Positions 7,508 through 27,040 of a stretch of DNA of 64,000 nt are shown piece after piece. The stretch is from Gemmatimonadota bacterium (lineage in GTDB: Bacteria; Gemmatimonadota; Gemmatimonadetes; Gemmatimonadales; Gemmatimonadaceae): the NCBI GenBank assembly GCA_016191225.1, contig JACPPC010000003.1, positions 1-64,000 of the forward strand, in the 5' to 3' direction. Within the stretch, counting starts at the first letter, position 1. Each line of letters opens with the position of its first letter. Both the position numbers and the translations under genes were made by a program. The notes beneath the pieces were generated by a model. That model was given only the letters and a program-made list of their open reading frames with translations. It was not told the origin of the DNA and did no database searches.

Positions 7508-9058
7508 CTAGCCCCCCGGTATCGCCCGCCCGTGGCACGCCACGCACACCGACGGGTTCTTGGCCTTCGCCGTCGCGGCGTTGAACCCTGGCCCATGCGG
7601 ATTGAACCGGTAGCCGCCGCCCACCGCCGAGTGACAGGCGGTGCAGTCGCGCTCGGCGTGGCACGAGGCGCACGACTCGAGACTCTGCCGCGCCGCTTGG
7701 CCGTGCCCCAGGCTGAAGCCGCGAAACGCGTCGTGGTACCCCGTACGCCCGATCCGCCGCCTCGCCACGAGCCCCGACTGCTGGTGGCACGCCTGGCAGA
7801 ACTGCGCGGGGTTGTGGCACTCGCTGCAGTTCATCTCGCGCGAGTACGCCGAGGCCGGATGGCGCGTGAGGAACCCCTGCGCGTGGTATCGTGCCTGGCG
7901 GCTCCCCTCGGGGCGGTGGCACTCGAGGCAGGTCGAGCGCAGGTGACAGCTCTCGCAGGTGGCGGGGCGGGCGCTCGCCTGCGGCCCATGGCGCTCCTTG
8001 AAGTCGCTGGTGTGGCTCGCCGGCGGCACCCGCTTGAGGTGCGCCCCCGGCGCGCGCCCGGGGCCCGCGGTGGGCATCGTGGTCACGGCGCGCGGCGGGA
8101 TCCCGACATGGCAGCTGAAGCAGCTTTCGCGCGAGTGGCAGCTCGAACAGGTGGCCGTCGACCGCTCGGCATCGCGGCCATGGAAGCCAAGCCAGCCCGC
8201 CGCGCGGTGCGTGGGCGGCACCGGCTGCGTGCCCGTGTACACCGGCGGCCGGTCGTCGAGCGCGAGTGACAGGATCACCGGCGATTCGGCGGCGTTCACG
8301 TGGCAGCTCATGCACAGGTTGCGCGAGTGGCAGGTGGCACAGCTCGCCGCCACGGTGGGGTGCTCTCCCGGCAAGCGCCCCGGCACCTTGGCCGCCCTCC
8401 CGTGCCCGCCGAGCACGAAGTCGGCCGCGGCATGCGACTGCGGCTTGGGGAAGGTCTTGATCCATTCGCGGGTAAGGCTCGGCGCGTCGGTGAGGCGCAC
8501 GTGGCAGGTGGCGCAGACCTCGTTGCCGTTGTCCACGTGCGGCGCCTTGAGCCCGTGGCACTGCAGGCAGTTGCCGACCACCGCATTGCGCACCGCCATG
8601 CGCGGCGCCCCGGGCTCGGTGTGGCAGCCGGCGCAGTTGCGCATCATCGCGCTGTCGGCGGGGTTCCTGGCCGCGGCGGCCTTGCCGTGCGCCTCGTGCG
8701 TGAACCGGCGGTTCCCGGCGCGCGGCCCCACCCGCGGCTCCCATGTGATGCGCGGCTTGACCGTGCCGTCGTGGCACGACGCGCACCCCTGCGCCGTGGG
8801 CCACATCGACTGTCCCGGATCCACCACGCCGGCGTGGCACGAGGTGCAGACCGGGAAGACCTTGGCGTGCTTGTCGTGCGGGAACCGCGTCGGCGAGGCT
8901 GCGCGGGGCTGGGACACCGTCGCCACCTGCGGCAGCGCGAACGCCGCGCGCCACGGCAGGGCGAGGGCGAGCACGGCGCTCGCGACGAGCGCCATCGGCG
9001 CGATCGCCCCTCCCACGCGCGCCATCCTCGCGGCCCCCGCTCCCAGGCTCGGGCTCAT
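7508..9058 (-). CDS. Exported 16-heme cytochrome c
   Basis: A 516-residue protein with an N-terminal signal peptide (hydrophobic MALVASAVLALAL ending near AFA) and sixteen CxxCH heme-attachment motifs: CTSCH, CASCH, CAGCH, CLQCH, CATCH (twice), CMSCH, CSSCH, CFSCH, CESCH, CLECH, CSECH, CQACH, CASCH, CTACH and CVACH. Extra histidines between motifs (FPHDKH, FTHEAH) could be distal ligands. No lipobox or C-terminal membrane anchor is seen, so it is periplasmic or outer-face. ATG 9058 overlaps the stop of the barrel gene (ATGA). It is the last gene of the cytochrome operon. By analogy with porin-cytochrome conduits it could be the heme wire associated with the barrel. There is no CxxCK, so it is not NrfA. 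Confidence 0.9.
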   Translation of the reverse strand: MSPSLGAGAARMARVGGAIAPMALVASAVLALALPWRAAFALPQVATVSQPRAASPTRFPHDKHAKVFPVCTSCHAGVVDPGQSMWPTAQGCASCHDGTVKPRITWEPRVGPRAGNRRFTHEAHGKAAAARNPADSAMMRNCAGCHTEPGAPRMAVRNAVVGNCLQCHGLKAPHVDNGNEVCATCHVRLTDAPSLTREWIKTFPKPQSHAAADFVLGGHGRAAKVPGRLPGEHPTVAASCATCHSRNLCMSCHVNAAESPVILSLALDDRPPVYTGTQPVPPTHRAAGWLGFHGRDAERSTATCSSCHSRESCFSCHVGIPPRAVTTMPTAGPGRAPGAHLKRVPPASHTSDFKERHGPQASARPATCESCHLRSTCLECHRPEGSRQARYHAQGFLTRHPASAYSREMNCSECHNPAQFCQACHQQSGLVARRRIGRTGYHDAFRGFSLGHGQAARQSLESCASCHAERDCTACHSAVGGGYRFNPHGPGFNAATAKAKNPSVCVACHGRAIPGG

Positions 9059-10536
9059 CGCGGCAAGGGCCGCGCGCGCGGCAGTGGCGTGCGGTCCGCT
9101 CCCGAGCCGACCGCCACGCTGAACCCGGCGCGCAGCCGGAGTTGCGAAAGCGACGACGCGCTCGCGTCGGGGCGGTACCGGTCGTCGCTCACGAGCGCGG
9201 CGTCGCACCACACCCGGTGCTGGGGCGAGAACTGCCATTCGCCGCGGCCGCCGATCCAGCGGCTCGTGGCGTCGTAGTAGCGCAGTTCGAGGGGGCGGGC
9301 CAGGCTCCCGGCGTACAGGTCGACCGAGAACACCGCGCTCGGCGCCCACGTCACCGACGCGTCGGTGAACCGCCCCGCGGCGCCGGGGCCGCGCTCCAGG
9401 CCGAAGCTTCCCTCGAGGGTCCATGCGGTGCCCACCGTCGCCGTCGCGCCCGTGCTCATGCGCCACCCACCGGCTTCGAGGCGCGGCACGATCGACGTGT
9501 TGATTTCCGCGTTGTCATAGCGGTACGACTCGCCGCGGGCGTTGAGCGAGAGCCAGCCGTTGGGCCGCACCTGCGCCGAGGCCGTGACCGCGTTGTAGGG
9601 CACGGGGCTGAAGGCGCCCCATAGCGTCCAGAGGCTGAAGTAGGGGACGTAGCGACGCGCGCCGACGGTCACCGCGTACCGCGGCTGAACGTACGTGAGC
9701 GCGAGTTCGGTGGTGCCCATCTTCCCCTCGGCCATGTTGTACTGCGTGCCGCCGCTGGCGCGGAACGGTCCGACCTGTGCGCCCAGCGACAGCGCCGTCC
9801 GCTCCGACACGAAGTTTCCGTCCTCGGGGTCGATCTCGCGGCGGTACTCGGCCCGGGCGTCGATCCACCGGAAGCGCCAGGTCGCCTCGGCGCCGCCGAG
9901 GATCTGGCGATCGCGCGGGCGCCATTCGTCGAGCGGGTTGAGCGCCGGATTGCTCGCCGTGACCGCGGCCGCCTGCCCAAGCCCCCAGCCGCCGTAGCCG
10001 GTGAGCTCCAGCGCGGCGTCGTCCCACCGCACCTTGAGCCACCCGCCGTCAAAGCCGATCGGCTCGAGCCGCGACGCCACGAGCTGCCGCCCCACGCGCA
10101 GCGTGACCGGCGACCGCTGGTACTCGACGTAGCCCTCGAGGAGCTGCGCGTTGGGCGTCGTCCCCGGCCAGGGGGCGTCGCCGCCGGCGTCGGTCACGAG
10201 CCGACCGGTGGCGCGAACGGCGAGTCCCTCGACGCCGAGGCCCCACAGCACCATGCTCGCCGAGACAGCCACCGGGAGGGCGCGCAGCTCGGGGCCCGGC
10301 CGCAGGTAGTAGCAGTATGGCCCGTTGTTGCAGCGCAGGGCGAAGCCATCGGGCGTCACGAGCCCGCCGCTCGCCGTCGGCACCGCGAGCGCGGCGTCGA
10401 TGCTGTCGGGCGCGAGCCCGCGATACGAGATGGCCTGTGCCCTCGCGTCGAGGCGAATGCGGTAGTCCTGCGCCGCGGCGGGAAGGGTCCACGCCGCCAG
10501 CGCCAGGGCGGCCACGAGGGCGCGGAGCGCGGTCAT
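9055..10536 (-). CDS. Outer-membrane beta-barrel protein of the cytochrome operon (porin-cytochrome type)
   Basis: A 493-residue protein with a signal peptide ending PAAAQ and then long runs of alternating polar/hydrophobic residues rich in Gly, Tyr, Trp and Arg. This is the pattern of amphipathic strands of an outer-membrane barrel. Near residue 70 a CxxxxxxC pair (CNNGPYC) could form a disulfide. The start overlaps the stop of the 20-heme cytochrome gene and its stop overlaps the 16-heme gene start, so the three products are made together. Family resemblance to MtrB/PioB or Geobacter Omb barrels is by context and architecture; I see no diagnostic motif. It could instead be a general substrate porin. 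Confidence 0.75.
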   Translation of the reverse strand: MTALRALVAALALAAWTLPAAAQDYRIRLDARAQAISYRGLAPDSIDAALAVPTASGGLVTPDGFALRCNNGPYCYYLRPGPELRALPVAVSASMVLWGLGVEGLAVRATGRLVTDAGGDAPWPGTTPNAQLLEGYVEYQRSPVTLRVGRQLVASRLEPIGFDGGWLKVRWDDAALELTGYGGWGLGQAAAVTASNPALNPLDEWRPRDRQILGGAEATWRFRWIDARAEYRREIDPEDGNFVSERTALSLGAQVGPFRASGGTQYNMAEGKMGTTELALTYVQPRYAVTVGARRYVPYFSLWTLWGAFSPVPYNAVTASAQVRPNGWLSLNARGESYRYDNAEINTSIVPRLEAGGWRMSTGATATVGTAWTLEGSFGLERGPGAAGRFTDASVTWAPSAVFSVDLYAGSLARPLELRYYDATSRWIGGRGEWQFSPQHRVWCDAALVSDDRYRPDASASSLSQLRLRAGFSVAVGSGADRTPLPRARPLPR

Positions 10537-12611
10537 CGCGGCACCCGCGAAACCAGCTTCGCCTTGTGCGCCTCGGGCTCGGCGAGGAAGTGGCAGCTGG
10601 TGCACTCGCGCTGGTCGTTGTGTCCCTGCGCCTTGCTCGCGTGGCAGGTGGCGCAGAAGCTGCGCGTCGGCACGAGCCGTGCGATCGTGGTGGCGGTGTG
10701 GCAGGCATCGCAGCGCTGGTGCGTGACGTCGGCGGGGGCGTGGGCGGCCTTGGGATCGGGAATCTTGTGGCACCCCGAGCAGTCGCGGCGGGCCGAGTGA
10801 TGGTCGCTGTGGCAGTCCTTGCACGTGACCGTGGTCGGCGCGGGCGCCATCGTGACCGGCGTGACGTGGCAGTCCGTGCAGGCCTTGGAGACGTGCTTCT
10901 CGTGCAGGAAGCCCACCGTGCGCGCGTTGGCCGGCCGGCCCGGCACGGTCACCGTCACGGTCACGCGCCGCACCGCGCCGTACTTCTCCTTGTGGTGGCA
11001 GCTGGCGCACTTGTCGGGCGTCGGCGACTGGTGGTGGCAGATCGCGCAGCCGCGCGGCCGCTCGAAAGTGAGCCGGCCGTGCCCCGACCCGGTCTGATGG
11101 CATTCCAGGCACGCCCGTTTCGCGTGCCTCGCATGGGGAAAGCTGTCGGTGGGGGAGGGCGGGGGGGGGCGCGCGGCGACGGCCCGTCCTTGCGGCGATC
11201 GCGGCGTCCCCCGGGCCGGTTCGGGGAGGGACTCCGCGGCCGGCCCGTCGCCGCCCGTTGGGAGCTCGGCGCGGCCGGCGTCGTCGTCGGCGGCGAGGAA
11301 TGGCCCGTGCCAACGCCCCTCGCGCGGCGCCACGCCCGCCGCCGGCCCCGCGCCCCTCGGAGGCCTGGGGGTCGCGGCCGGAGCCGGGGCGGCCGGGCGC
11401 AGCGCCTTGACGGTGTCGAAGGCAACCGGTGGCCTGGGCCCGCCGCTCTCCCGCACGCGCGTGTGGCACCCCTGGCACTCGCTCGCGTCCACTCCCGCGC
11501 GGTGAGGCACGTGGCAGGTGAGGCAGCTCGAGGCGACCTTGCGGTGGTTCTCGCCGGCGTGGAACGGCTTCTCGCGATAGTCGTCATGGCACCCCGAGCG
11601 GGCGCAGCTCTTGGCCGCGGCCGCCGGGGTCTTCTGCGTGTGCGGGTTGTGGCAGGCGCCGCACTTGCCGCCGTGCGGGTCGCGCCCCTCGTCGAAGTCC
11701 TTGAGGACCTTCTGCATCTCGTGGCAGCCCAGGCACTGGGGCTTGCCGGGCACGAGCGTCCCGCGCGCCGAGTCGCGCGTGGCGAGGGCGGGGACGTCCT
11801 CGGTGAAGCCGTGGCAGCTCGTGCAGTGGCGCACCGTCTGGGTTTCCATCTTGCCCAGCACGACCGTCGTGTTCCTGGCGTCGTGGCAGTTGCTCTGGCC
11901 GCAGGTCTTCTCCACCGGCCGGAACTGGTGCACCTCGACGCCGTGGCAGGTCACGCACTGCAGGTTCTTGAGCACCGCCGAGTCCGACTCGAGGTGCACG
12001 CGATGGCCGGCGGTGCCGGCGATCCGCTTCCACTTGGCGGTGTCGCCGGTGACGTGGCAGGTGCGGCAGACCTCGTTGGGCACCTTGGCGTGCTTGCCGA
12101 TCTCCCTCGGCCGGTTGGCGACCCACAGGTAGAGCTGCCGCATGCTGGCGTAGAGCGGCTGCTGGTGGCAGTTGTGGCACGACAGCTTGCCGTGCTTGTT
12201 CTCGGCGTTCGAGAAGCGCTGGAACGCCTGGTTCATCACGTGGCAGCCGGTGCAGAAGTCGTTGTCGTTCTGCGTGTAGTTCCAGGTCGCGGCGCCGGCG
12301 CCGCCCACGGTGGCGAGCACCAGCACGCCGGCGAGCGCCAGCCCCCAGCGCATCGCCAGCTCGCTGGCGCCGAGCCAGGCGGCGATCCTCGCGCGCCGCA
12401 GCCACACCCAGCGCACGGCGAGGAGGCCGACGACGCAGGCGACGGCGAACAGCGTGATCTGCAGCCACGTGGGAATGCTGTTCAGCAGGAAGCGCACGAC
12501 CACCGCCACGCCGCCCGGGAGGGGCGACGTGACGACGGTCGAGTCGACCAGGGCGCCGTGCGATTGCCCGAGCGCCGCTGCCGGGTGCGCTACCCCGGCA
12601 ACGGCGCTCAT
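10533..12611 (-). CDS. Membrane-anchored NapC/NirT-type 20-heme cytochrome c
   Basis: A 692-residue protein from ATG 12611 (ATG 12623 is also possible). Two membrane segments lie at about 48-70 and 88-110, then a NapC-like start (NDNDFCTGCHVMNQAFQRF, first Cys 120). There are 18 CxxCH and two CX4CH motifs (CGQSNCH and CARSGCH). Eleven motifs precede and nine follow a heme-free Pro/Ala-rich linker of about 100 residues. NapC-type proteins take electrons from menaquinol, so this protein probably links the quinone pool to periplasmic carriers. The linker codons contain a run of nine G on the plus strand at 11161-11169. It follows the lipoprotein gene by 34 bp and overlaps the barrel gene. Confidence 0.88.
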   Translation of the reverse strand: MSAVAGVAHPAAALGQSHGALVDSTVVTSPLPGGVAVVVRFLLNSIPTWLQITLFAVACVVGLLAVRWVWLRRARIAAWLGASELAMRWGLALAGVLVLATVGGAGAATWNYTQNDNDFCTGCHVMNQAFQRFSNAENKHGKLSCHNCHQQPLYASMRQLYLWVANRPREIGKHAKVPNEVCRTCHVTGDTAKWKRIAGTAGHRVHLESDSAVLKNLQCVTCHGVEVHQFRPVEKTCGQSNCHDARNTTVVLGKMETQTVRHCTSCHGFTEDVPALATRDSARGTLVPGKPQCLGCHEMQKVLKDFDEGRDPHGGKCGACHNPHTQKTPAAAAKSCARSGCHDDYREKPFHAGENHRKVASSCLTCHVPHRAGVDASECQGCHTRVRESGGPRPPVAFDTVKALRPAAPAPAATPRPPRGAGPAAGVAPREGRWHGPFLAADDDAGRAELPTGGDGPAAESLPEPARGTPRSPQGRAVAARPPPPSPTDSFPHARHAKRACLECHQTGSGHGRLTFERPRGCAICHHQSPTPDKCASCHHKEKYGAVRRVTVTVTVPGRPANARTVGFLHEKHVSKACTDCHVTPVTMAPAPTTVTCKDCHSDHHSARRDCSGCHKIPDPKAAHAPADVTHQRCDACHTATTIARLVPTRSFCATCHASKAQGHNDQRECTSCHFLAEPEAHKAKLVSRVPR

Positions 12612-12645
12612 CTTCGGGACCATCGGCAGGTGGGGCGTAATCGGC

Positions 12646-14223
12646 TTACCTGCGCGGAGGCAAGGATGCGGTGTGCAGCGTGGCGTTGAACGGCCCGCCA
12701 ATCCTGGGGCCGCCCAGATTGGCCGGCATCACCGCGGAGGCGACCGGCAGCCCGTAGTAGGTCTTGACGTAACTGATCGTGGCCACGAGCAGGGCTTCGC
12801 AGAGGAACGGATTGTGCACGCCCTTCGAGCTGTCGGTGTTCGACTGGCCGTACTCGCCGCACAGCCGGGCGTTGAACTCCGCGCCCTCGGCCGGCGTGAT
12901 CTTGCCGTCGGTATTGCTCCACTCGCCCGGCATGGTGCTCTTGAGCGTGGCGAGCAGGCCGCCGTCGGCCGGGGCCGCCGTGATCGAGAGACTGCCGTTC
13001 GCGTCCACCCAGAGCTGGTCCGTGTAGAACTTCATGCGGGCGCGCACGGTGGCGAAGGCCGAGGCGGCCACGGCCGCGGTCGCGTGGCACCCGGACTGCG
13101 TGCACGACTTCCACGACCGGGCGGTCTCGGAGTAGGCGCAGGTCTTGTCGGCGGTCGGCTTGCCCGTGGCGTCCAGGCAGGGAATCGGCCGGAAGAGGTG
13201 GCCGGTGGACTGGAACGTGAACGCACCGGTCGCCGCGTCGGTCACGGTCAGCCGCGTCACGTGGCAGCCGGCGCAGAGGCGCGGGTTCGCGCCCGTCGCG
13301 TGCGAGCCATAGATCGCCGTCGTGTCGTAAATGAAGCCCGGCGGCCGCCAGCCGGCCTCGCCCAGCAGCACCGCGCCCTGCGGTGCGTGCGGCGAACTGC
13401 TGGTGACCAGCGGCTCGCTGCGCCGCATGTGGCACTGCATGCACAGGTTCTGCGACGGGTCGTTCGAGGTGATCGAGAGCCGCAGCTGGCGCGTGTTTTC
13501 CGAGCCATGCGGCGCATGGCAGACGGCGCAGGTCGTCGGCTGGTAGGCCGTGGCCGAGTCACGCTCGGCGTAGTTGGTGCCGCCGTCCCATCGCTCCAGC
13601 GCCTTGCGGCCGTCGTGGCAGGCGGCGCAGCCGGACGACACGTTGCTCGCCGCCGGGATGTACACGACGTTGTGCCCCGATGCGGCCCACTCCTCGGCGA
13701 ATGGCGAGTGCGTTCCGGTGTGACAGTCACCGCAGTTGCCCTTGCCCGTCATGGCGAGGCGGGCCAGCGGCCGCACGATCGAGGCGGCCCCAACCCCTTC
13801 CACATGCGCCTGGCCGGGGCCGTGGCAGTTCTCGCACTGCACGTCATAGTAGGTCGAGTCCTTGACCGCCTGATACCCGACCACCGTGCCCTGCAGCTTG
13901 TTGCCGTTGCCCGTCACCGCGTGGCACTCGAAGCAGCTCGCCGCCTTGCCGGGACTGTTGTTCGCGTCGGTCCACGCACTGGCATGCTTGGTCGTCACCC
14001 AGCTGGCCTGGAGCTCGGCGTGACAGTTGCCGCAGGTCGTCCGCTTCGTCGACGCCTGGTAGTAGCCCAGGAATCCGCTCGCCGCGTCCTTCGGCGGGTT
14101 GAACGGGGCCCGGTCCCTGTAGACGATCTTGTCGCTGGTATTGCACCCGGCGAGCGTGAGGGCCGCCACGGCGGCGGCCGTCAGGAGCCGATTGATCCGG
14201 GTGGTCGCTCGATCTTTGCGCAT
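12646..14223 (-). CDS. Nine-heme lipoprotein cytochrome (cytochrome c554-like N terminus)
   Basis: A 525-residue lipoprotein: a short signal ends in the lipobox LAGC. Eight CxxCH motifs and one CX4CH (CTQSGCH) are present. The order CGNCH, tryptophan/TKHASAW, CFECH, then VQCENCHGPGQAH is the pattern of the cytochrome c554-like family. About 150 C-terminal residues lack heme motifs. The lipid anchor suggests attachment to the outer membrane, possibly exposed at the surface as a terminal reductase or contact site. It is the first gene of the minus-strand operon, divergent from the Mo-enzyme operon. Confidence 0.88.
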   Translation of the reverse strand: MRKDRATTRINRLLTAAAVAALTLAGCNTSDKIVYRDRAPFNPPKDAASGFLGYYQASTKRTTCGNCHAELQASWVTTKHASAWTDANNSPGKAASCFECHAVTGNGNKLQGTVVGYQAVKDSTYYDVQCENCHGPGQAHVEGVGAASIVRPLARLAMTGKGNCGDCHTGTHSPFAEEWAASGHNVVYIPAASNVSSGCAACHDGRKALERWDGGTNYAERDSATAYQPTTCAVCHAPHGSENTRQLRLSITSNDPSQNLCMQCHMRRSEPLVTSSSPHAPQGAVLLGEAGWRPPGFIYDTTAIYGSHATGANPRLCAGCHVTRLTVTDAATGAFTFQSTGHLFRPIPCLDATGKPTADKTCAYSETARSWKSCTQSGCHATAAVAASAFATVRARMKFYTDQLWVDANGSLSITAAPADGGLLATLKSTMPGEWSNTDGKITPAEGAEFNARLCGEYGQSNTDSSKGVHNPFLCEALLVATISYVKTYYGLPVASAVMPANLGGPRIGGPFNATLHTASLPPRR

Positions 14224-14637: not shown

Positions 14638-16983
14638 ATGAGTCCGGTCGACCGCAGGACGTTCCTGAAGGGAATCGCCACCATCTCGGCGGCGACCGCC
14701 GGCTCGGCGGTGGCTCCGGCCCTCGGCCTGCCCGTGGCCGGGGACCTCGTTGCCGCCGCCGAGCCCGCACCCTCCTGGAAGCGGACGCCCTGTCGCATGT
14801 GCGGCGTCGGCTGCGGTCTCCTGGTGGGAATCGAGAATGGCCGCGCCGTGGCCGTGCGGGGCGATCCCGATTCGCCGGTGAGCAAGGGGCTCGCCTGCGC
14901 CAAGGGCTACTATGCCGTGCAGGCCCTCTATGCCCGCGACCGGATCACCCGCGCGATGGTCCGCACCAATGGCACGCTCGCCCCGGTGCCGGTGGCCGCC
15001 GCCCTCGACCTCGTGGCCCGCCGCCTGCGCGAGACGGTGGAGCGGCACGGCAAGGACAGCGTCGCGCTGTACGGCTCGGCGCAGTGGACCGTCCCCGATG
15101 CCTACGTCGCCTCGAAGCTCTTCAAGGGTGCCCTCGGCACCAACAACGTCGAGAGCAGCTCGCGCCTCTACGCCGCGAGCGCCATGGCCGGCCTGCAGGG
15201 GACCTTCGGCCTCGACGGCGCGATCGGCTGCTACGAGGACATCGAGCACGCCGACGTCTTCGTGCTCTGGGACGAAAACCTCGCCGAGACCGAGCCCGTG
15301 CTCTTCTCGCGCATGCTCGACCGGCGGCGGCGCGACCCCGCCGTGCGCATCGTCGACCTCGCCACGCGCACCACCCGCACCAGCTACGCCGCCGACGCCT
15401 CGCTGCTCCTCGCGCCGCACTCGGCGTCGGCGGTCGCGAACGCGATCTGCAACGAGCTGGTCGAGCGGCGGTGGGTGCGCCGCGAGTTCGTCGACCGGCA
15501 CGTGGCCTTCAAGCGGGGCCCGGAAGGGATCGGTCACGGGCTGGCGAGCGACGCCCTCGTGCCCGACGACGCCTCCAGCGCCACGTGGGACCAGTACGTG
15601 AAGTTTCTCGGCGACTACTCGCCGGAGCATGCGGCGCGCGTCTCGGGACTCGCCGCCGATCGCATTCGCTGGCTGGCGTCGCTCTATGGCGATCCGCAGC
15701 GCCGCGTCATGTCCGTCTGGGGCGGCAACGCCAACCGCCACTCGCGCGGGACCTGGCTCAACAACCTGCTCTACAACATCCACCTGCTCGTGGGGAAGGT
15801 CGCCTCGCCCGGCAACAGCCCGTTCTGCACCACCGGGCAGCCGGGGGGGGGCAGCGCCGTGCACGACGCCGGCACCCTCTCCCACACGCTCCCCCGCGGC
15901 GTGGTGACCGACGAGCGCGACCGGCGCCGCGCCGCCGGGATCTGGGGTGTGCCCGCCGACCGCATCGATCCCAGGCCCGCAGGCCACGCGCTCGCCATGT
16001 ATCGCGCCCTCGAGCGCGGCGACATCCGCTTTCTCTGGATCCAGGCCACCAACCCGATGGTCAGCCTGCCCAACGTGGATCGCTACCGCGGCGCCGCGGG
16101 CCGCGACGACCGGTTCATCGTCGTCTCGGAGGCGTACCCCACCGCCACCACCGACGTCGCCGACGTGGTGCTGCCGGCGGCCCTCTGGTTCGAGCGCGAG
16201 GGGGTCTTCGCGAGCATGGAGCGTCGCCTGCAGCACTTCGAGCGCATGACCGCGCCCCCCGGCGACGCGATGGGCGACGCCTGGCAGATGATCGAGGTCG
16301 CCCGCCGGCTCGGGCACGCGTCGCTCTTCCCGTGGGACCGTCGCGACCACGCCGCGAAGGCCTGGGAGGAGTACTCCCGCTTCCACGACGACGCCGGCAG
16401 CGCGCTCCCGGCGCTCGCCGCCCTGCAGGCGAAGCCCGGCCTGCAATGGCCGTTCACCGGCGCGCGCGAGACCCGCTGGCGCTACAACACGGCGCACGAC
16501 CCCCGCGCCGACCGTGCCCGCGGCGACTTCGACTTCTACGGGCACGCCGACGGCCGCGCCTGGGTCTGGCTCCGCCCGCACGACGCCCCCGCCGAGGCGC
16601 CCGATCGCGCCTATCCCCTCTGGCTCGTCTCGGGCGCGGTGCTCGAGCACTCCGGCGCGGGAGCGCTCACGCAGCGCATCCCCACGCTCCATCGGGCGGT
16701 CCCGCGCGCGTACGTGGAGGTCAACCGCGACGACGCCGCGCGGCTCGGCATTCGCGACGGCGAGCGGGTGCTCGTGCGGAGCCGCCGCGGTGCCCTCGAG
16801 CTCGATGCCCGCATCGACTACCGCTCCCAGCCCCCGGCCGGCCAGCTCTTCATTCCCTCGTTCGACGAGTCCATGCCGGTCAACCGGCTGATGCTCGACG
16901 CGAGCTGCCCCGTGTCGGGACAGCCGGCCACGAGCACCTGCGCCGTGCGCCTCGAGCGGCTGGGTGCGGGCGGCGGCGCATGA
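14638..16983 (+). CDS. Tat-exported NapA-like molybdopterin oxidoreductase lacking the Mo-ligand Cys
   Basis: A 781-residue protein with a twin-arginine signal (VDRRTFLKG). The [4Fe-4S] site is C52-x2-C55-x3-C59...C87. The whole chain aligns by eye with periplasmic nitrate reductase NapA (GCYEDIEHAD, GTWLNNLLYNIHLL, TGQPGGGSAV, then a C-terminal molybdopterin dinucleotide domain with VLEHSGAGALTQRIP). NapA has a Cys in RxCMASA that binds Mo. Here the same place reads RLYAASA, so the ligand is Tyr178 or absent. An extra Cys397 replaces the usual Ser in PFSLTGQP. Substrate is therefore uncertain; ordinary nitrate reduction is doubtful. It overlaps the next gene by ATGA. ATG 14638 is chosen because it gives the Tat signal. 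Confidence 0.88.
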   Translation: MSPVDRRTFLKGIATISAATAGSAVAPALGLPVAGDLVAAAEPAPSWKRTPCRMCGVGCGLLVGIENGRAVAVRGDPDSPVSKGLACAKGYYAVQALYARDRITRAMVRTNGTLAPVPVAAALDLVARRLRETVERHGKDSVALYGSAQWTVPDAYVASKLFKGALGTNNVESSSRLYAASAMAGLQGTFGLDGAIGCYEDIEHADVFVLWDENLAETEPVLFSRMLDRRRRDPAVRIVDLATRTTRTSYAADASLLLAPHSASAVANAICNELVERRWVRREFVDRHVAFKRGPEGIGHGLASDALVPDDASSATWDQYVKFLGDYSPEHAARVSGLAADRIRWLASLYGDPQRRVMSVWGGNANRHSRGTWLNNLLYNIHLLVGKVASPGNSPFCTTGQPGGGSAVHDAGTLSHTLPRGVVTDERDRRRAAGIWGVPADRIDPRPAGHALAMYRALERGDIRFLWIQATNPMVSLPNVDRYRGAAGRDDRFIVVSEAYPTATTDVADVVLPAALWFEREGVFASMERRLQHFERMTAPPGDAMGDAWQMIEVARRLGHASLFPWDRRDHAAKAWEEYSRFHDDAGSALPALAALQAKPGLQWPFTGARETRWRYNTAHDPRADRARGDFDFYGHADGRAWVWLRPHDAPAEAPDRAYPLWLVSGAVLEHSGAGALTQRIPTLHRAVPRAYVEVNRDDAARLGIRDGERVLVRSRRGALELDARIDYRSQPPAGQLFIPSFDESMPVNRLMLDASCPVSGQPATSTCAVRLERLGAGGGA

Positions 16984-17813
16984 CGGCCGCTCCCCGCGGG
17001 CGCTCCGCCCTGCCGATGCGCCTCTTCCTCGCCGCCTCGGCGGTGGTGGCGACCGCGGCGCTCGTCGTCGGTGGCCGTCGGGTGGCCTCCGGCCGCGCGG
17101 CCGCCGCGCGCGCGCTGGCCGACCGGCTGCCCGTGGCCGTGGTCGTGGCCGAGCCCCCCGCCGAGCCGATCGCCGCCGAGGCGCAGGTGTTCCGCACCCG
17201 GGCGGCCGCGCTCGCGATCGAGCCGTCCACGGAGCGGCGGCGGCCGGCGCATCCGCGATCCCTCGCGACCTGGCGCTCGCTGCGCGCCTATCCCGGGGCG
17301 CCGCCGCGCGTGCCGCACGGGCTCACCCCGGCCGAGTTCCGCACCGGCGGCTGCAAGACCTGTCACGAGCGCGGCGGCTTCTCCGAGCGCTTCGGCGCCT
17401 ACGTGCCCCTCACGCCGCATCCGCAGATGGGGGCCTGCCTGCAGTGCCACGTCGGCAACGCCACGCTGATGGCGATCGCGCTCCCCAGCACCGAGCCGAG
17501 CGCGCGCTGCCGCCAGTGCCACGCCCCGGGCGCCATGAAGTGGCGCGACTCGTCGCTCGCCTGGGCGCCGATGGCGTGGCCGAAGCTGGCGCCGGTCACC
17601 AGCGGGCGCACGCCGCCGCCCATCCCCCACCGGCTGCAGATGCGCGAGAACTGCCTCTCCTGCCACTCCGGCCCGTCCGGTGTCATGGAAATCCAGACCA
17701 GGCACCCCGAACGCGCCAACTGCCGGCAGTGCCATGTGCCTTCGACCGGCGACGTCGCGCCCTTCGTTCGCGTCGCACAGGGTGGCGGCCTCCGTCCCGG
17801 GTTCGCGCCATGA
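16980..17813 (+). CDS. Five-heme NapB-like cytochrome c
   Basis: A 277-residue exported or N-terminally anchored protein (hydrophobic LFLAASAVVATAALVV near residues 15-30). Five CxxCH motifs: CKTCH, CLQCH, CRQCH, CLSCH and CRQCH. The pattern PHGLTPAEFRTGGCKTCH, the PLTPHP motif and RENCLSCH...ANCRQCHVP resembles NapB, the diheme partner of NapA, extended by three hemes. It probably receives or delivers electrons for the molybdoenzyme, whose gene it overlaps by 4 bp. The following gene also overlaps. Confidence 0.85.
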   Translation: MTAAPRGRSALPMRLFLAASAVVATAALVVGGRRVASGRAAAARALADRLPVAVVVAEPPAEPIAAEAQVFRTRAAALAIEPSTERRRPAHPRSLATWRSLRAYPGAPPRVPHGLTPAEFRTGGCKTCHERGGFSERFGAYVPLTPHPQMGACLQCHVGNATLMAIALPSTEPSARCRQCHAPGAMKWRDSSLAWAPMAWPKLAPVTSGRTPPPIPHRLQMRENCLSCHSGPSGVMEIQTRHPERANCRQCHVPSTGDVAPFVRVAQGGGLRPGFAP

Positions 17814-18565
17814 CCGGGCGATCGCTGCGTCTCGGCGCCGCCGGCCTCGCCGCCGCGTTCCTGGCCCTCGGCTGCGGCCAGCGCGGTGGCGCGCCGGCGC
17901 GTGAGCGCGATGGGGGCGAGCGCGTGCACAACATTCCGTCGTCGGGGGCGGCGATCGCGCACGTCGACTCCGAGCAGGCGGCGCGCAACGCGACCCGCGA
18001 GCCGGGCGCGCTCGAGACCGTCACCGCGGGACCGGTCGCCCCGTGGAAGGGGCCCGGTGGCAAGCCGTTCGAGGTCGCCCTCCGCACCGCCGACCCGACC
18101 ACCGCCCTCGCCCGCAAGTTCGGCACGATCACCCTGCAGACGTCGGCCCGGGCGCGCGCCCCCGACCTCGGGCAGTATCCCTGCACCTCGTGCCACCTCG
18201 GCCGAAAGATCACCCTCGCCGAGAAGCGCATTCCCGACGCCCACCAGAACATCAAGCCGCAGCACCCCAGGCAGACGGGAGGTGCCTGCAAGACCTGCCA
18301 CGCGCCCGACAACGTCGAGCTGCTCGCGCTCCAGAGCGGCGAGCGGGCGACCCTCGACCACACCTACCGCGTGTGCGCCCAGTGCCACTTCGCGCAGGCC
18401 AACGCCTGGGCCGGCGGCGGCCACGGCAAGCGGCTCGACGGCTGGCAGGGGCGCCGCGTGCTGATGGGCTGCGCCGACTGTCACGACCCGCACAAGCCCG
18501 CGCTCGAGCGGCGCATCCCCTTCCGCGCGCCGGTACTGGCGCGACCGAGAGCCGACGACCCATGA
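17810..18565 (+). CDS. Tetraheme cytochrome c lipoprotein
   Basis: A 251-residue protein with a lipobox (LALGC) after a short signal. Four CxxCH motifs: CTSCH, CKTCH, CAQCH and CADCH. The first ~100 mature residues carry no heme and are Ala/Gly/Arg-rich, a likely spacer from the membrane. Both ends overlap neighbours by ATGA. A role as an electron shuttle subunit of the Mo/Fe-S/NrfD complex is inferred from the operon. Confidence 0.82.
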   Translation: MTGRSLRLGAAGLAAAFLALGCGQRGGAPARERDGGERVHNIPSSGAAIAHVDSEQAARNATREPGALETVTAGPVAPWKGPGGKPFEVALRTADPTTALARKFGTITLQTSARARAPDLGQYPCTSCHLGRKITLAEKRIPDAHQNIKPQHPRQTGGACKTCHAPDNVELLALQSGERATLDHTYRVCAQCHFAQANAWAGGGHGKRLDGWQGRRVLMGCADCHDPHKPALERRIPFRAPVLARPRADDP

Positions 18566-19539
18566 GCGACGCCCGCCTGACGGACCCTGCCGTGGATGCC
18601 GCCGACGCCACGCTCCTGCAGAAGCGCGTCGACCGGCGGCGTGCCCTCGGGATCCTGCTCGGCGGCGCGGCCGTCGCCACGCAGGCGGCGGCGGCCTGCT
18701 CGCCCGTCGCGCCCCTCTCCGACGAGGAGCGCGAGGTCAAGCTCCTCGCCTGGCGCGAGTACATCAAGGGGAACTACCGCTTCATGACCGAGGCCGAGCG
18801 CGCCGAGACCATCGCCCGGCTCGAGCGCATCGCCAAGGTCAAGCGCGGCGTCGACGTCCGCATCCAGTCCACCGGCGCCCAGCCGGGGGTGGAGTTCGGC
18901 TACGCCTTCAACATCTCCAAGTGCAAGGGCTTCCGCAGCTGCGTCCAGGCCTGCATCAACGAGAACAACCTCGACCGGCGCGCGGCCACCCAGTACATCC
19001 GCATCTTCGAGATGGAGAACGGCGTCGTGGACCTCGAGGAGGCCGACGCGACCTTCCAGCACGAGGTGCCCGCCGAGGGGCACTTCTACATGGGCACGCA
19101 GTGCTTCCAGTGCGCCAACCCGCCATGCGTCAAGGTCTGCCCCGTTGGCGCCACCTGGCAGGAGCCCGACGGCATCACCGTGATCGACTACGACTGGTGC
19201 ATCGGCTGCCGCTACTGCATGGCGGCCTGCCCGTACTGGGCCCGGCGCTTCAACTGGAGCGAGCCCGAGGTGCCGGTCGACCAGCTGAACCCGAACCAGC
19301 ATTACCTCGGCAACCGCGCCCGCAAGACCGGCGTGGTGGAGAAGTGCACCTTCTGCATTCACCGCACGCGGCAGGGCCGGCTCCCGGCGTGCGCCGAGGC
19401 GTGCCCGACCGGGGCGCGCGTGTTCGGCAACCTGCTCGACCCCGACTCGGAGATCCGCTGGGTGCTGGCGAACAAGAAGGTCTTCCGGCTCAAGGAAGAC
19501 CTGAATACCGAGCCGCGTTTCTGGTACTTCACCGACTGA
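18562..19539 (+). CDS. Tat-exported 4Fe-4S dicluster (DmsB/NrfC-like) subunit
   Basis: A 325-residue iron-sulfur protein with a twin-arginine signal (VDRRRALGILLGG) and a Cys at 46 that may be a lipid site. Four cluster sites are visible. Site 1 reads C121-KGF-RS-C127-VQA-C131: the usual second Cys is Phe124, so it has only three Cys and may hold a [3Fe-4S] or altered cluster. Sites 2-4 (CFQCANPPCVKVCP, CIGCRYCMAACP, CTFC...CAEACP) look complete. The family carries electrons between a catalytic molybdo-subunit and an NrfD-type membrane subunit. Both neighbours fit this. Confidence 0.9.
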   Translation: MSDARLTDPAVDAADATLLQKRVDRRRALGILLGGAAVATQAAAACSPVAPLSDEEREVKLLAWREYIKGNYRFMTEAERAETIARLERIAKVKRGVDVRIQSTGAQPGVEFGYAFNISKCKGFRSCVQACINENNLDRRAATQYIRIFEMENGVVDLEEADATFQHEVPAEGHFYMGTQCFQCANPPCVKVCPVGATWQEPDGITVIDYDWCIGCRYCMAACPYWARRFNWSEPEVPVDQLNPNQHYLGNRARKTGVVEKCTFCIHRTRQGRLPACAEACPTGARVFGNLLDPDSEIRWVLANKKVFRLKEDLNTEPRFWYFTD

Positions 19540-19546
19540 GGCCAAC

Positions 19547-20836
19547 GTGCACTTGTGGGCATTCGGGTTGAGCGCGCTGCGGTCGGCCACCACCGGGGGC
19601 CGGCGCTACCATGTGTGGATGGGCACCCTCACGCTCATCATGCTCGTTGGCGCGTACGCCTACTCGCTGCAGCTCCGCCATGGCCTCGGCGTCACCGGCC
19701 TGAGCGACCACGTGAGCTGGGGACTGTACATCTCCAACTTCACCTTCCTCGTCGGCCTCGCCGCGGCCGCGATGATGCTCGTCCTCCCCGCGTACATCCT
19801 GCACGACGTGGATTTCAGCCGTGCCGTGCTCATGGCCGAGGCGGTGGCCGTCTCGGCGCTCGTGATGTGCCTCTCGTTCGTGGTCGTGGACATCGGCAAC
19901 CCGCTCGGCGGCTGGCACCTCCTGCCCGGCATCGGCTACCTGAACTGGCCGCGGTCGCTCCTCGCCTGGGACGTGCTCGTGCTGAACGGCTACCTGGCGA
20001 TCAACCTCGCCATCCCGTTCTACATCCTCTACAGCCGCTACTGCGGCCGCGCCCCCGACAAGCGCAAGTACCTCCCCTGGATGTACCTCGCGGTGATGTG
20101 GGCGGTGAGCATCCACCTCGTCACGGCCTTCCTCCTCGCCGGCCTCCCCGCGCGGCCGTTCTGGAACACTGCGCTCCTCGGCCCCCGCTTCCTCGCCTCG
20201 GCCTTCACCGCCGGCCCCGCCTTCGTCATCCTCCTCCTCTCGTTCATCAAGCGGGAGACGAGCTACCCGATCGCCGAGGGCGCCTTCACCAAGCTGGCGC
20301 TGATCACCACCGTCGCGGCGCAGATCAACTTCGTCATGCTCGGCTCGGAACTGTTCTACAAGTTCTACTCGCCCACGCTCCACGGCATCAACGCCCGGTA
20401 CCTCTTCTTCGGCGTCCACGGCCACCACGCGCTCGTGCCGTGGATCTGGACCGCGATCGGGCTCGGCGCCGCCGCGACGCTGGCGCTCATGATCCACCCC
20501 ATCCGGCGCAACCCGCGCTACCTGGCGATCGCCTGCGCCGCCCTGTTCGTCGGCATCTGGGTGGAGAAGGGGATCGGCCTCGTCGTGCCGGGCTTCGTCC
20601 CGTCACCGCTCGGCGAGCTCGTCGAGTACACCCCGAGCCTCGTGGAGCTGGGTGTCACCGCCGGCATCTGGGCGCTCGGCATGTTCGTCCTGACCGTGCT
20701 GGTCCGTGTGGCACTCCCGATCGAGCTCGGCCAGGTGCGCAGTCCGTACCTGGACGACACCCCCGCCGCGCCGATCGTGCGCCCGCGCAGTTCCCGCGTG
20801 GCCGCCCGCGACACCGGGCCGGTGCGCACCCGCTGA
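19547..20836 (+). CDS. NrfD/PsrC-type integral membrane quinone-interacting subunit
   Basis: A 429-residue protein with about ten hydrophobic segments. GTG 19547 is 7 bp after the Fe-S gene. Features of the NrfD family include an N-terminal helix pair, DHVSWGLYISNFTFLVGLAAAA and a repeated eight-helix core, followed by an Arg/Pro-rich tail. NrfD proteins oxidise or reduce menaquinone on the outer side of the membrane and pass electrons to the Fe-S partner. Together with genes 14638-18565 it predicts a quinone-linked molybdenum complex. Confidence 0.9.
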   Translation: MHLWAFGLSALRSATTGGRRYHVWMGTLTLIMLVGAYAYSLQLRHGLGVTGLSDHVSWGLYISNFTFLVGLAAAAMMLVLPAYILHDVDFSRAVLMAEAVAVSALVMCLSFVVVDIGNPLGGWHLLPGIGYLNWPRSLLAWDVLVLNGYLAINLAIPFYILYSRYCGRAPDKRKYLPWMYLAVMWAVSIHLVTAFLLAGLPARPFWNTALLGPRFLASAFTAGPAFVILLLSFIKRETSYPIAEGAFTKLALITTVAAQINFVMLGSELFYKFYSPTLHGINARYLFFGVHGHHALVPWIWTAIGLGAAATLALMIHPIRRNPRYLAIACAALFVGIWVEKGIGLVVPGFVPSPLGELVEYTPSLVELGVTAGIWALGMFVLTVLVRVALPIELGQVRSPYLDDTPAAPIVRPRSSRVAARDTGPVRTR

Positions 20837-20885: not shown

Positions 20886-21821
20886 ATGTCCCGACATGCC
20901 CCGAACGACACCCGGTACTCGATCGCCGCCCTCGCCGCCGGGGCGGTGGGCGCGGCCGGCATTGCCGGCGCGCTCTTCCTGCTGGGCGCCCCCCTTCCCC
21001 TCGTGGCCGGCGTGGGGCTGGTGGCGGGCGTCTTCGTCGCCGCCGCCATCAAGTACACCGACCAGTGGGAGAAGGCGGTGCTGATGCGGCTCGGCAGCTA
21101 CCGCGGCCTGCGCGGCCCCGGCTACTTCGCCGTGGTGCCGATCATCGACCGCGTGGCCTACACCATCGACCAGCGCATCCGCACCACCGCCTTCGGCGCC
21201 GAGTCGTGCCTCACCCGCGACACCGTGCCGGTGAACGTCGACGCGATCGCCTTCTGGATCGTGCGCGACGCCGAGCGCGCCGCCCTCGAGGTGCAGGACT
21301 ACGACGAGGCCGTGATCCTCTCCGCCCAGACCGCCCTCCGCGACGCGATCGGCAAGCATGACCTCGCCGAGCTCATCCAGTCGCGGGTGGAGCTCGGCCA
21401 CGGGCTCAAGGAGGCGCTCGAGCAGAAGATGATGACCTGGGGAATCCAGGTGCAGTCGGTCGAGATCCGCGACGTCATCATCCCGGCGGCGCTCGAGGAC
21501 GCGATGTCGCGCCAGGCGCAGGCCGAGCGCGAGCGGCAGGCCCGCATCATCCTCGGCACGGCGGAGACCGAGATCGCCCACAAGTTCGTCGAGGCGGCGG
21601 CGGCGTACAAGAACCACCCCGAGGCGATGAACCTGCGGGCGATGAACATGCTCTACGAGAGCATCGTCAAGCGCGGCTCGCTGATGGTGGTCCCGTCGGG
21701 GCTGTCCGACTCGCTCAACGTGCCGTCGCTGATGGGGCTCGCGGGGGCCGCGAAGCTGGCGCCCCACGACGCCCTCGCCGCCGCCACGGTCGCACCGGTC
21801 AAGGCGGGCGCGGCGCAGTAG
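20886..21821 (+). CDS. Slipin/stomatin-like SPFH-domain membrane protein
   Basis: A 311-residue protein with two hydrophobic segments near the N terminus (residues ~15-55) and a complete SPFH/Band-7 domain (KYTDQWEKAVLMRLG, VPIIDRV, SCLTRDTVPVNVDA, ALRDAIGKHDLAELI, QVQSVEIRDVIIP). ATG 20886 is chosen because a GAGGTG lies 6 bp upstream; an ATG at 20880 directly abuts that motif. Family members scaffold membrane complexes and help quality control. It is 49 bp downstream of the NrfD gene and could organise that complex. Confidence 0.85.
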   Translation: MSRHAPNDTRYSIAALAAGAVGAAGIAGALFLLGAPLPLVAGVGLVAGVFVAAAIKYTDQWEKAVLMRLGSYRGLRGPGYFAVVPIIDRVAYTIDQRIRTTAFGAESCLTRDTVPVNVDAIAFWIVRDAERAALEVQDYDEAVILSAQTALRDAIGKHDLAELIQSRVELGHGLKEALEQKMMTWGIQVQSVEIRDVIIPAALEDAMSRQAQAERERQARIILGTAETEIAHKFVEAAAAYKNHPEAMNLRAMNMLYESIVKRGSLMVVPSGLSDSLNVPSLMGLAGAAKLAPHDALAAATVAPVKAGAAQ

Positions 21822-22619: not shown

Positions 22620-23150
22620 TCAGGGAGCGGGCGGGGACGGCGGCGGGGACGCCGCGGTTCCGGTCCAGCGCCGCACGAGCATGGCGACGAACGCCAGCCC
22701 GCCGATGACGAGGAGCACCGGGAAGGCGTACAGCAACTTGTTGAGGCCGGTCATCGACGGCTCGAGCAAAATCCACTCGCCGTACTTCGACACGAAGTAG
22801 GCACGCACCTGGTCCGGGCTCTCGCCCGCGCGCAGCCGGTCCTTGACCAGGGTGCGCATCTGCTGCGCGAGCTCCGAGGGCGACGCCTGGATCGACTCGC
22901 CCTGGCAGACCGGGCAGCGCAGGGTGCGCGCCACGGCGGCCGTCCGCTCGTCGAGCGCCGAGTCGGCGGCCGAGTTGGCGGCCGAGTTGGCGGCCGAGTT
23001 GCTGGTGCCGGCGGCGGTTGGAGCCGATGCGGGGGCGCTCGTGGCGGCCGGCGCAGTCCCTTGCGCCGCGCGGTCCTGTGCCCGCGCGGGGCCCGCCAGG
23101 CACAGCGCGGCGCCCAGCGCCGCCAGCGTGGCGATCGTGCGCCGGCTCAC
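22620..23150 (-). CDS. ccmH: Cytochrome c maturation protein CcmH
   Basis: A 176-residue periplasmic thioredox protein anchored by a C-terminal membrane helix (LLYAFPVLLVIGGLAFVAMLV). The LRCPVCQG motif supplies the Cys pair that keeps apocytochrome CxxCH thiols reduced. A signal peptide (ALGAALCLAGPARA) and an Ala/Ser/Asn-rich spacer, partly coded by a 12-bp repeat, precede it. GTG 23150 overlaps the ccmG stop (GTGA). No CcmI-type TPR extension is attached. Confidence 0.92.
   Translation of the reverse strand: MSRRTIATLAALGAALCLAGPARAQDRAAQGTAPAATSAPASAPTAAGTSNSAANSAANSAADSALDERTAAVARTLRCPVCQGESIQASPSELAQQMRTLVKDRLRAGESPDQVRAYFVSKYGEWILLEPSMTGLNKLLYAFPVLLVIGGLAFVAMLVRRWTGTAASPPPSPPAP
22957..23001. 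repeat. 12-bp tandem repeat inside ccmH
   Basis: About 3.75 copies of gccgagtyggcg in tandem. They encode a repeated Ser-Ala-Ala-Asn/Asp spacer in CcmH. Copy number is a multiple of three bases, so expansion or loss keeps the frame. Confidence 0.8.
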
Positions 23151-23740
23151 CGGCCCGATCCCCGCGACGCGGGCGCTCGCGTCGCCTTGTCGGACACCAG
23201 CGAGTCGATCCATGTGTGCAGCACCGCCCGCGTGATCGCCCCGGTGTGCTTGTAGGTGATCCGCCCCGCGGGATCGATGATGAACGTCTCGGGGACGCCG
23301 TACACACCGTAGTCGATCGCCATTCGCGCCCCGGGGTCCAGCAGCGCCGGGTAGCTCTGGCCCCCCAGCCCGGCGATCCATCGCAGTGCGTCGGCGGGGC
23401 GGTCGTTGTACAGCACGCCCACGAACTGCACCGGCCGGCCGATGTAGTCGCGCGCCGACGTGGTGAGCGCCTCGTGCTCCTCGCGGCAGGGAATGCACCA
23501 CGACGCCCAGAAGTTCACCACCAGCACCTTGCCGCTGAACTCCCGCAGCCGCAGCGTGTCGCCCACCGTTCGCGCCAGCGGCCCCTCGCCGGTCGCAAAC
23601 ACCGGCAGGGCGAACGCCGGCGCCGGGCGCCCGGGGAGCGGCGACGGGATGTCCGCGGGGTTGCGCGTGAACCCGAACTTGAACAGCCACAGCAGCGGCA
23701 GCGCCGCCACCACGGCCACGAAGGCGCGCTTCCAGTTCAT
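23147..23740 (-). CDS. ccmG: Thiol:disulfide interchange protein CcmG/TlpA family
   Basis: A 197-residue membrane-anchored thioredoxin-fold protein. An N-terminal helix (residues ~6-20) is followed by NFWASWCIPCREE, whose WCxxC motif is the redox site, and the cis-Pro segment GVPETFIID. It supplies reductant to CcmH or the apocytochrome. The start overlaps the ccmF stop (ATGA) and the stop overlaps ccmH. Confidence 0.92.
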   Translation of the reverse strand: MNWKRAFVAVVAALPLLWLFKFGFTRNPADIPSPLPGRPAPAFALPVFATGEGPLARTVGDTLRLREFSGKVLVVNFWASWCIPCREEHEALTTSARDYIGRPVQFVGVLYNDRPADALRWIAGLGGQSYPALLDPGARMAIDYGVYGVPETFIIDPAGRITYKHTGAITRAVLHTWIDSLVSDKATRAPASRGSGR

Positions 23741-25707: not shown

Positions 25708-26144
25708 GGGCCCGTCTGCTTGATGAGGGTCTTGTACTTCTCGTGCGCTTCCTCACCCGGCTTGGGCGCCCGGTACTCGTTCGAGTGCTTCACCATCAGG
25801 TTCGTCGCCTCGAACACGCCGCCGGCGCCCACCCGCCCCTCGACGATCACCCCCATCCCGTCGCGGAACATCTGTGGCGGCGCCCCCGTCGAGCGCACCG
25901 CCATCTCCCTGGCGCCGTCGGTGACCGTGAAGCGCAGGTCGAGCGTCTTGGCGTCCCATTGCACCGAGCCGGGCTTGACCTGCCCGCCGAGGCGCACCGC
26001 CACCCCCACGCCGTCCGTCCCCTTGGCCAGCAGCTCCTTGGGGGTCAGGAAGAAGACCACGTTCTTCTCGAGGCCGCCGAACAGCAGCCACCCGAACACG
26101 CCGGCCATCACCACCAGCGCGGCGATCACCCGGTTGCGCTTCAT
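25704..26144 (-). CDS. ccmE: Heme chaperone CcmE
   Basis: A 146-residue periplasmic OB-fold protein with one N-terminal membrane helix. The HxxxY motif (KHSNEY) contains the His that binds heme covalently. The upstream strand signature (FFLTPKELL) also fits. It carries heme from CcmC to CcmF. Overlaps both neighbours by 4 bp. Confidence 0.94.
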   Translation of the reverse strand: MKRNRVIAALVVMAGVFGWLLFGGLEKNVVFFLTPKELLAKGTDGVGVAVRLGGQVKPGSVQWDAKTLDLRFTVTDGAREMAVRSTGAPPQMFRDGMGVIVEGRVGAGGVFEATNLMVKHSNEYRAPKPGEEAHEKYKTLIKQTGP

Positions 26145-26317
26145 CGTGCCCCCTCCCCGCCCGCGCCCGGCACGAGGCGCGCGTAGTCGGCGTTCGCCCG
26201 GGCCCCGGCGCGCACGAGCCGCACCAGGTAGCCGAGGATCACCACCCACGTCACCCCGTACGCGGCGTAAATGAAGCTCCAGTTCGATGCGACGATGTCG
26301 TCCACGATCCCCGTCAT
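26141..26317 (-). CDS. ccmD: Small membrane protein CcmD
   Basis: A 58-residue protein with one membrane helix (FIYAAYGVTWVVILGYLV) flanked by a short acidic N terminus and a basic C terminus, as in CcmD. It stabilises the CcmABC release complex. Position between ccmC and ccmE, with ATGA overlaps on both sides, decides the identity, since CcmD sequences vary. Confidence 0.85.
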   Translation of the reverse strand: MTGIVDDIVASNWSFIYAAYGVTWVVILGYLVRLVRAGARANADYARLVPGAGGEGAR

Positions 26318-27030: not shown

Positions 27031-27040
27031 CAGTGGGCCT

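Follow-up and report, generated by a model that had tools for sequence, protein, structure and literature searches.

A conserved three-cysteine site I in the iron-sulfur subunit of a predicted NrfD-type quinol dehydrogenase of Nap-like operons

Four-site iron-sulfur (Fe-S) subunits of NrfD-type complexes are expected to carry sixteen ligand Cys residues. The one encoded in the window, i.e., the whole stretch of 64,000 nucleotides of a Gemmatimonadota draft genome analyzed here, has fifteen: codon 124 (18931-18933) is TTC and places Phe at the second Cys of site I. Sites II (CFQCANPPCVKVCP), III (CIGCRYCMAACP) and IV (CTFC...CAEACP) are complete, as judged by translation and alignment. An earlier sequence-only reading had described this protein as an Fe-S subunit with one Cys of site I replaced by Phe and the other three sites seemingly intact, beside a molybdenum (Mo) enzyme that has also lost a ligand. 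The translation and the alignments bear out each of these points, and the protein belongs, with its four sites and its NrfD neighbor, to a membrane oxidoreductase; in the neighboring subunit, Tyr178 occupies the column of the Mo-ligand Cys of solved NapA. The locus raises the question of whether Phe124 is a peculiarity of a single sequence, a response to the loss of the Mo ligand or a property of a larger group of proteins, and of which cluster such a site would hold.

The Fe-S gene belongs to an operon (Table 1) in which the genes of the NapA-like subunit, the pentahaem cytochrome, the tetrahaem cytochrome and the Fe-S subunit are joined in series by four-base overlaps. The top NCBIfam match of the Fe-S subunit was DsrO (NF045797; 193.7 bits, below the cut-off of 200), and the two relatives scanned with the same model, L101 and L141, also remained below this value (198.8 and 197.4 bits, i.e., 3/3 proteins fail). 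A DsrO identity was ruled out by the score, by the operon, which is not dsrMKJOP, and by site I. The score with the NrfC model TIGR03149 was 121.5 bits (cut-off 377.6). The pentahaem cytochrome scored 22.3 bits with NapB PF03892, below the cut-off of 25.1, compared to 37.9 bits for its counterpart in L101. The lipobox-like Cys46 of the Fe-S subunit is kept in 72 of 84 aligned relatives. An AlphaFold2 model of this subunit, built from 47 aligned sequences, was set aside (mean pLDDT 40.7, pTM 0.28).

Table 1. Genes and motifs of the operon and the adjacent multihaem block, with positions in the window.
Feature	Position	Strand	Basis and remarks
Multihaem cytochrome, 16 CxxCH	7508..9025	-	MtrC/MtrF-like domain 59 bits, cut-off 30
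Probable outer-membrane beta-barrel	9055..10536	-	Predicted from sequence; no Pfam match; flanked by multihaem genes in the window and in related loci
Membrane-anchored multihaem cytochrome, 18 CxxCH	10533..12503	-	Cytochrome_C7 46 bits; NapC/NirT N-terminal domain 19.4 bits, below cut-off 24.1
Multihaem cytochrome, 8 CxxCH	12646..14223	-	MtrC/MtrF-like domain 50.1 bits, cut-off 30
NapA-like molybdopterin subunit, 781 aa	14638..16983	+	NapA NF010055 708.7 bits, below cut-off 904
Pentahaem c-type cytochrome, 5 CxxCH	16980..17813	+	Cytochrome_C7 36.9 bits; corresponds to the NapB-like cytochromes in related operons
Tetrahaem c-type cytochrome, 4 CxxCH, lipoprotein-like N-terminus	17810..18565	+	Cytochrome_C7 25.0 bits, cut-off 24.8
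Fe-S subunit, 325 aa	18562..19539	+	Tat motif RRRALGILLGG; lipobox-like Cys46; four sites with 15 ligand Cys in all
Site I of the Fe-S subunit, C121-KGF124-RS-C127-VQA-C131	18922..18954	+	Translation; alignment of relatives
NrfD-family membrane subunit (quinone-binding type), GTG start	19547..20836	+	DsrP NF045798 394.2 bits, cut-off 350; Pfam NrfD 103.9 bits
SPFH/Band-7 protein	20886..21821	+	Pfam Band_7 127.4 bits; downstream of the operon in several relatives

The distribution of residue 124 was followed in two sets of genomes. Among 395 genomes of the same phylum, not counting that of the window, at least 23 close orthologues (66-86% identity) were identified; up to five candidates were scored per genome, so 23/395 is a lower bound. 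Position 124 is Phe in 11 and Tyr in 13 of these proteins with the window protein included (n=24), and Cys in all ten of the more distant relatives (53-60% identity). A scan of the genomes of 84,980 species, using search patterns that did not include residue 124, yielded 313 relatives. In the best 80 of these 313 loci, some of which are the same contigs as those of the 23 orthologues, the position is occupied by Tyr (68), Phe (10) or Ser (2), and never by Cys. With duplicates removed, the second Cys of site I was found to be missing in 84/84 distinct proteins (Tyr 67, Phe 15, Ser 2), while the remaining 15 ligand Cys are invariant throughout the alignment (site IV in 83/84, with one gap). Throughout the clade this position is Tyr, Phe or Ser, and Phe124 of the window protein is a local form of it.

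A compensating Cys in homologues had been named beforehand as an outcome that would overturn the observation, which stands: a compensating Cys or a shifted motif was sought in the 84 proteins, and none is conserved. Past residue 56 and outside the Cys columns of the window protein, 78 of them have no additional Cys, five have one, and one has two. Besides site I, 22 columns are specific to the clade, which can be defined by a site I of the form C-x2-[YFS]-x2-C-x3-C, the other 12 Cys and common descent; the window protein has all three attributes. The two proteins with Ser at the site I position come from Kiritimatiellales (L105 and L113). In one Cys-type relative (L064:9181-9909), the first of the site III Cys residues is replaced by Gly, possibly a base error.

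To reconstruct the history of the site, a tree of the Fe-S proteins was computed by a quick search with SH-aLRT support only. Removal of near-identical rows reduced 143 proteins to 112; those shorter than 230 aa were omitted, and the column of residue 124 was retained. The 84 non-Cys proteins form one clade (SH-aLRT 100), separated by a single change from Cys; each of the 21 remaining four-site proteins of the tree has Cys at position 124. The ancestor of the clade therefore lost this Cys once, after which Tyr, Phe and, in rare cases, Ser took its place. Within the Tyr clade, five label changes on the tree indicate several origins of Phe. According to the record labels, which are doubtful for some of the draft genomes (e.g., L070), the clade includes Gemmatimonadota, Bacteroidota, Thermodesulfobacteriota, Acidobacteriota, Myxococcota, Kiritimatiellota, Calditrichota and others. 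When site I was scored as aromatic-or-Ser, Cys or none, two changes sufficed for the whole tree. The third state is that of true DsrO: in all seven proteins above the DsrO cut-off with a readable N-terminus (L148-L154) the site I CxxCxxC is gone, three of its four Cys being missing. Sister groups thus differ in having a complete, a three-Cys or no site I.

What would a three-Cys site hold? In this fold, the cluster farthest from the membrane is ligated by Cys 1-3 of site I together with the final Cys of site IV. NarH, which has Trp in place of a second Cys, contains a natural [3Fe-4S] cluster at its membrane-near site, and replacement of Cys102 of DmsB by Trp, Ser, Tyr or Phe reportedly gave [3Fe-4S]. 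Site III of ActB from alternative complex III reads CIGTRYC, with Thr at the second Cys. Since the natural [3Fe-4S] sites of the superfamily likewise lack the second Cys of CxxCxxCxxxC, a [3Fe-4S] cluster in site I is likely. The ActB precedent concerns site III, near the membrane, as opposed to site I in the window clade; by analogy, the distal (site I) cluster is probably [3Fe-4S], bound by three Cys of site I plus one of site IV at the membrane-distant end of the chain. As the change is common to relatives from many phyla, this would probably be a built-in, three-iron version of the cluster and not a mistake.

Two other states of the site were considered. Site I might instead hold a [4Fe-4S] cluster with its fourth iron on a Tyr or Ser oxygen or on water, and both the commonest residue (Tyr, 67/84) and the rarest alternative (Ser, 2) do carry an oxygen. 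Phe, however, is unable to bind iron, and it is present in 15/84 proteins and arose several times in the Tyr clade. Tyr and Phe are exchanged as if the ring, and not the oxygen, were conserved, which suggests that the ring fills the empty corner rather than acting as a ligand, and we regard this arrangement as unlikely. It is even less probable that site I is a relic without any cluster, as in true DsrO. The fold does tolerate such a loss, as seen in 7/7 DsrO proteins, but C121 and C127 are invariant in 84/84 proteins from many phyla, which is not expected of a relic. We therefore favor, with good though not full confidence, an Fe-S subunit of a periplasmic NrfD-type quinol dehydrogenase for Nap-like operons, whose three-Cys site I most likely carries [3Fe-4S].

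The association with Nap was examined in the best 80 of the 313 loci. A NapA homologue is present in 73 of them, and the gene order of the Nap-linked loci is NapA - NapB-like - tetrahaem c - FeS - NrfD. Seven loci are without NapA; in six, the contig ends upstream of the Fe-S gene. The seventh, L125, is an uncut locus on the chromosome of a Flavobacteriaceae MAG, where NapA was found neither within 6 kb nor, above the cut-off, anywhere in the genome. L125 retains a Tyr-type Fe-S gene, NrfD and a tetrahaem-like gene. All three Cys-ligated NapA partners that were scanned exceed the NF010055 cut-off of 904 (1002, 948 and 947 bits), and one of the three passes the older TIGR01706 model (cut-off 930.55). 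The second gene of L101 is NapB according to Pfam PF03892. In ten loci with Cys-type Fe-S proteins, the tetrahaem, Fe-S and NrfD genes are present, and no match to the window NapA-like or pentahaem protein was found (0/10). In our reading of these operons, the clade Fe-S subunit would be part of a quinol-dehydrogenase module serving a Nap system.

In such a module, electrons would pass from quinol at NrfD to the membrane-near cluster and along the chain to the [3Fe-4S] cluster of site I, and from there through the tetrahaem cytochrome and the NapB-like cytochrome to NapA. At the far end, a cluster with a higher potential would be well suited to passing electrons on to c-type haems. In alternative complex III, according to the available part of PMC5928083, electrons exit at the membrane-near cluster, so the distal cluster may also be a side branch. 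A clade that spans many phyla and has a non-Cys residue at the distal site would offer a natural experiment on where a high-potential cluster is placed in an electron wire. In the branch of the window, the NapA-like end would be without Mo chemistry, and the electrons would probably be routed elsewhere.

The NapA-like subunit of the window departs from NapA in both its NF010055 score (Table 1) and the Cys ligand to Mo. In the alignment with solved NapA, not only is the ligand Cys replaced, but the next residue, Met, is Ala179 and a conserved Arg is His409; the Cys residues of its own [4Fe-4S] site (52, 55, 59 and 87) are intact. Two branch mates scored 728.2 and 677.2 bits with NF010055 (cut-off 904). 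When 92 NapA partners were reduced to 77 distinct proteins by dropping near-identical rows, the Mo-ligand position was found to be Cys in 64 and another residue in 13 (Tyr 9; Thr, Glu, His and Phe 1 each). These 13 form one branch, mostly from Gemmatimonadota, with support of 100 and one change. Of 263 columns conserved at ≥97% in the 64 Cys-type proteins, 52 differ in half or more of the 13, including the Met that follows the ligand as well as Arg409 and His219 (64/64 in the Cys group). Several of the new residues are invariant among the 13 (e.g., Gly194 and Gly362, each 13/13), and all four [4Fe-4S] Cys are present in every member that covers them. Divergence of the NapA-like subunit relative to the Fe-S subunit is 1.65× in the 13-member branch (46 pairs), compared to 0.92 in the Cys group (244 pairs). 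These features suggest that the NapA-like subunit of the window branch has probably ceased to reduce nitrate. Mo itself may be retained, since in arsenite oxidase the metal is bound although no protein ligand is present. Missing molybdopterin synthesis was considered as proof of a Mo-free enzyme and found uninformative, as the window genome contains moaA (352 bits, cut-off 284) and five PF00384 matches.

The sequence-only reading had hinted at a link between the change in the Fe-S subunit and the loss of the Mo ligand in the same operon. The window has both changes, and among the 14 Fe-S rows of the Mo-loss branch Phe is frequent (11, against 3 with Tyr). However, 64/77 NapA partners keep the Mo Cys beside three-Cys Fe-S subunits, and the loss of the Fe-S Cys spans 84 proteins, whereas that of the Mo ligand is a single later change (13/77). 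Moreover, Phe also occurs with Cys-ligated NapA (L089, L093 and L074) and Tyr with Mo-less partners (L051, L083 and L085). The Fe-S change is thus older and mostly paired with Cys-ligated NapA, which argues that it was not caused by the Mo loss; a causal tie is not supported, and a response of this kind is very improbable. The Mo-ligand loss would add a second, dated step to the history of a molybdoenzyme that is decaying or being put to another use. A sequencing, assembly or frameshift error, which had been raised as a caveat and could be imagined in a draft assembly of 23 contigs, has a negligible chance of explaining Phe124, since 84/84 distinct relatives are without Cys and without a substitute, among them independent genomes that include those of the cultured type strains L134, L141, L101 and L106.

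Upstream of the operon and divergently oriented, the block at 7508-14223 resembles a porin-cytochrome conduit. Matches to this multihaem block were found in 8/8 Mo-less loci that hold the Mo gene (partial in L051, with one gene only) and in 4/13 Cys-type loci, one of them weak, many contigs being too short to judge. This suggests a possible link of the block to outward electron transfer. A more tentative scenario, which we consider possible but doubtful, is that in this mostly Gemmatimonadota branch a Nap operon has turned into a new quinol:cytochrome complex, in which NapA would have kept its [4Fe-4S] site, lost Mo chemistry and acquired residues conserved across the branch, the distal cluster would be [3Fe-4S], and electrons would go to the porin-multihaem conduit and not to nitrate, independently of alternative complex III.

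The module shares features with several known systems. Subunits of the NrfC/PsrB/DmsB type have the same order of four sites, Tat export and an adjoining NrfD gene, and differ from the window clade in retaining the second Cys of site I; Table 1 of PMC8076601, a source available in part, lists them with four [4Fe-4S] clusters. DsrO and DsrP of DsrMKJOP are the top family matches, the membrane partner scoring above the DsrP cut-off, but the Fe-S gene of the window lies beside Nap partners instead of dsrMKJ. The Desulfobulbales DsrO proteins (L148-L154) lack the site I CxxCxxC, although the same table gives DsrO four [4Fe-4S] clusters. In cable bacteria, a DsrOh-DsrPh-tetrahaem cassette is proposed to transfer electrons from quinol to the periplasm (PMC13047784, available part). 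Its arrangement, FeS - NrfD - tetrahaem c, resembles that of the ten Cys-type relatives found near a tetrahaem gene without NapA; unlike the window clade it has no NapA/NapB, and the available part does not deal with its cluster ligands.

Alternative complex III also combines an NrfD subunit, a Mo-type protein without Mo chemistry and a pentahaem cytochrome, as in the window. Its clusters are one [3Fe-4S] (+140 mV, in ActB) and three [4Fe-4S], according to the available part of PMC5928083. ActB is, however, a fused Mo-like/Fe-S protein with its [3Fe-4S] at the membrane-near site, and its Mo-like domain contains no cofactor, whereas the window NapA-like subunit retains four [4Fe-4S] Cys.

Published Nap systems use NapC or NapGH with NapM or NapB (PMC5317091 and PMC5276818, available parts). 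In the window clade, Nap would instead be fed by a DsrOP/NrfCD-type module, and the Mo-Cys partners pass the NapA cut-off. The available parts of PMC5317091, PMC5276818, PMC5928083, PMC5516251, PMC11896075, PMC13047784 and PMC8076601 contain no description of this Nap-NrfD operon or of the Tyr/Phe site, the subscription literature lying mostly outside this coverage. Judging from the sequences, this would be a Nap variant linked to a DsrOP/NrfCD-like quinol module whose site I has three conserved Cys, and it occurs in cultured, workable bacteria such as Winogradskyella jejuensis DSM 25330, Aquimarina latercula DSM 2041 and Sulfidibacter corallicola.

Two further observations concern the genome of the window. 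It encodes a second, ActB-like Fe-S protein (L002, on C3), in which site III reads CVGTRYC, the pattern of alternative complex III. On the minus strand at 22620-28416 of the window, frames resembling cytochrome c maturation (Ccm) genes were recognized by eye.
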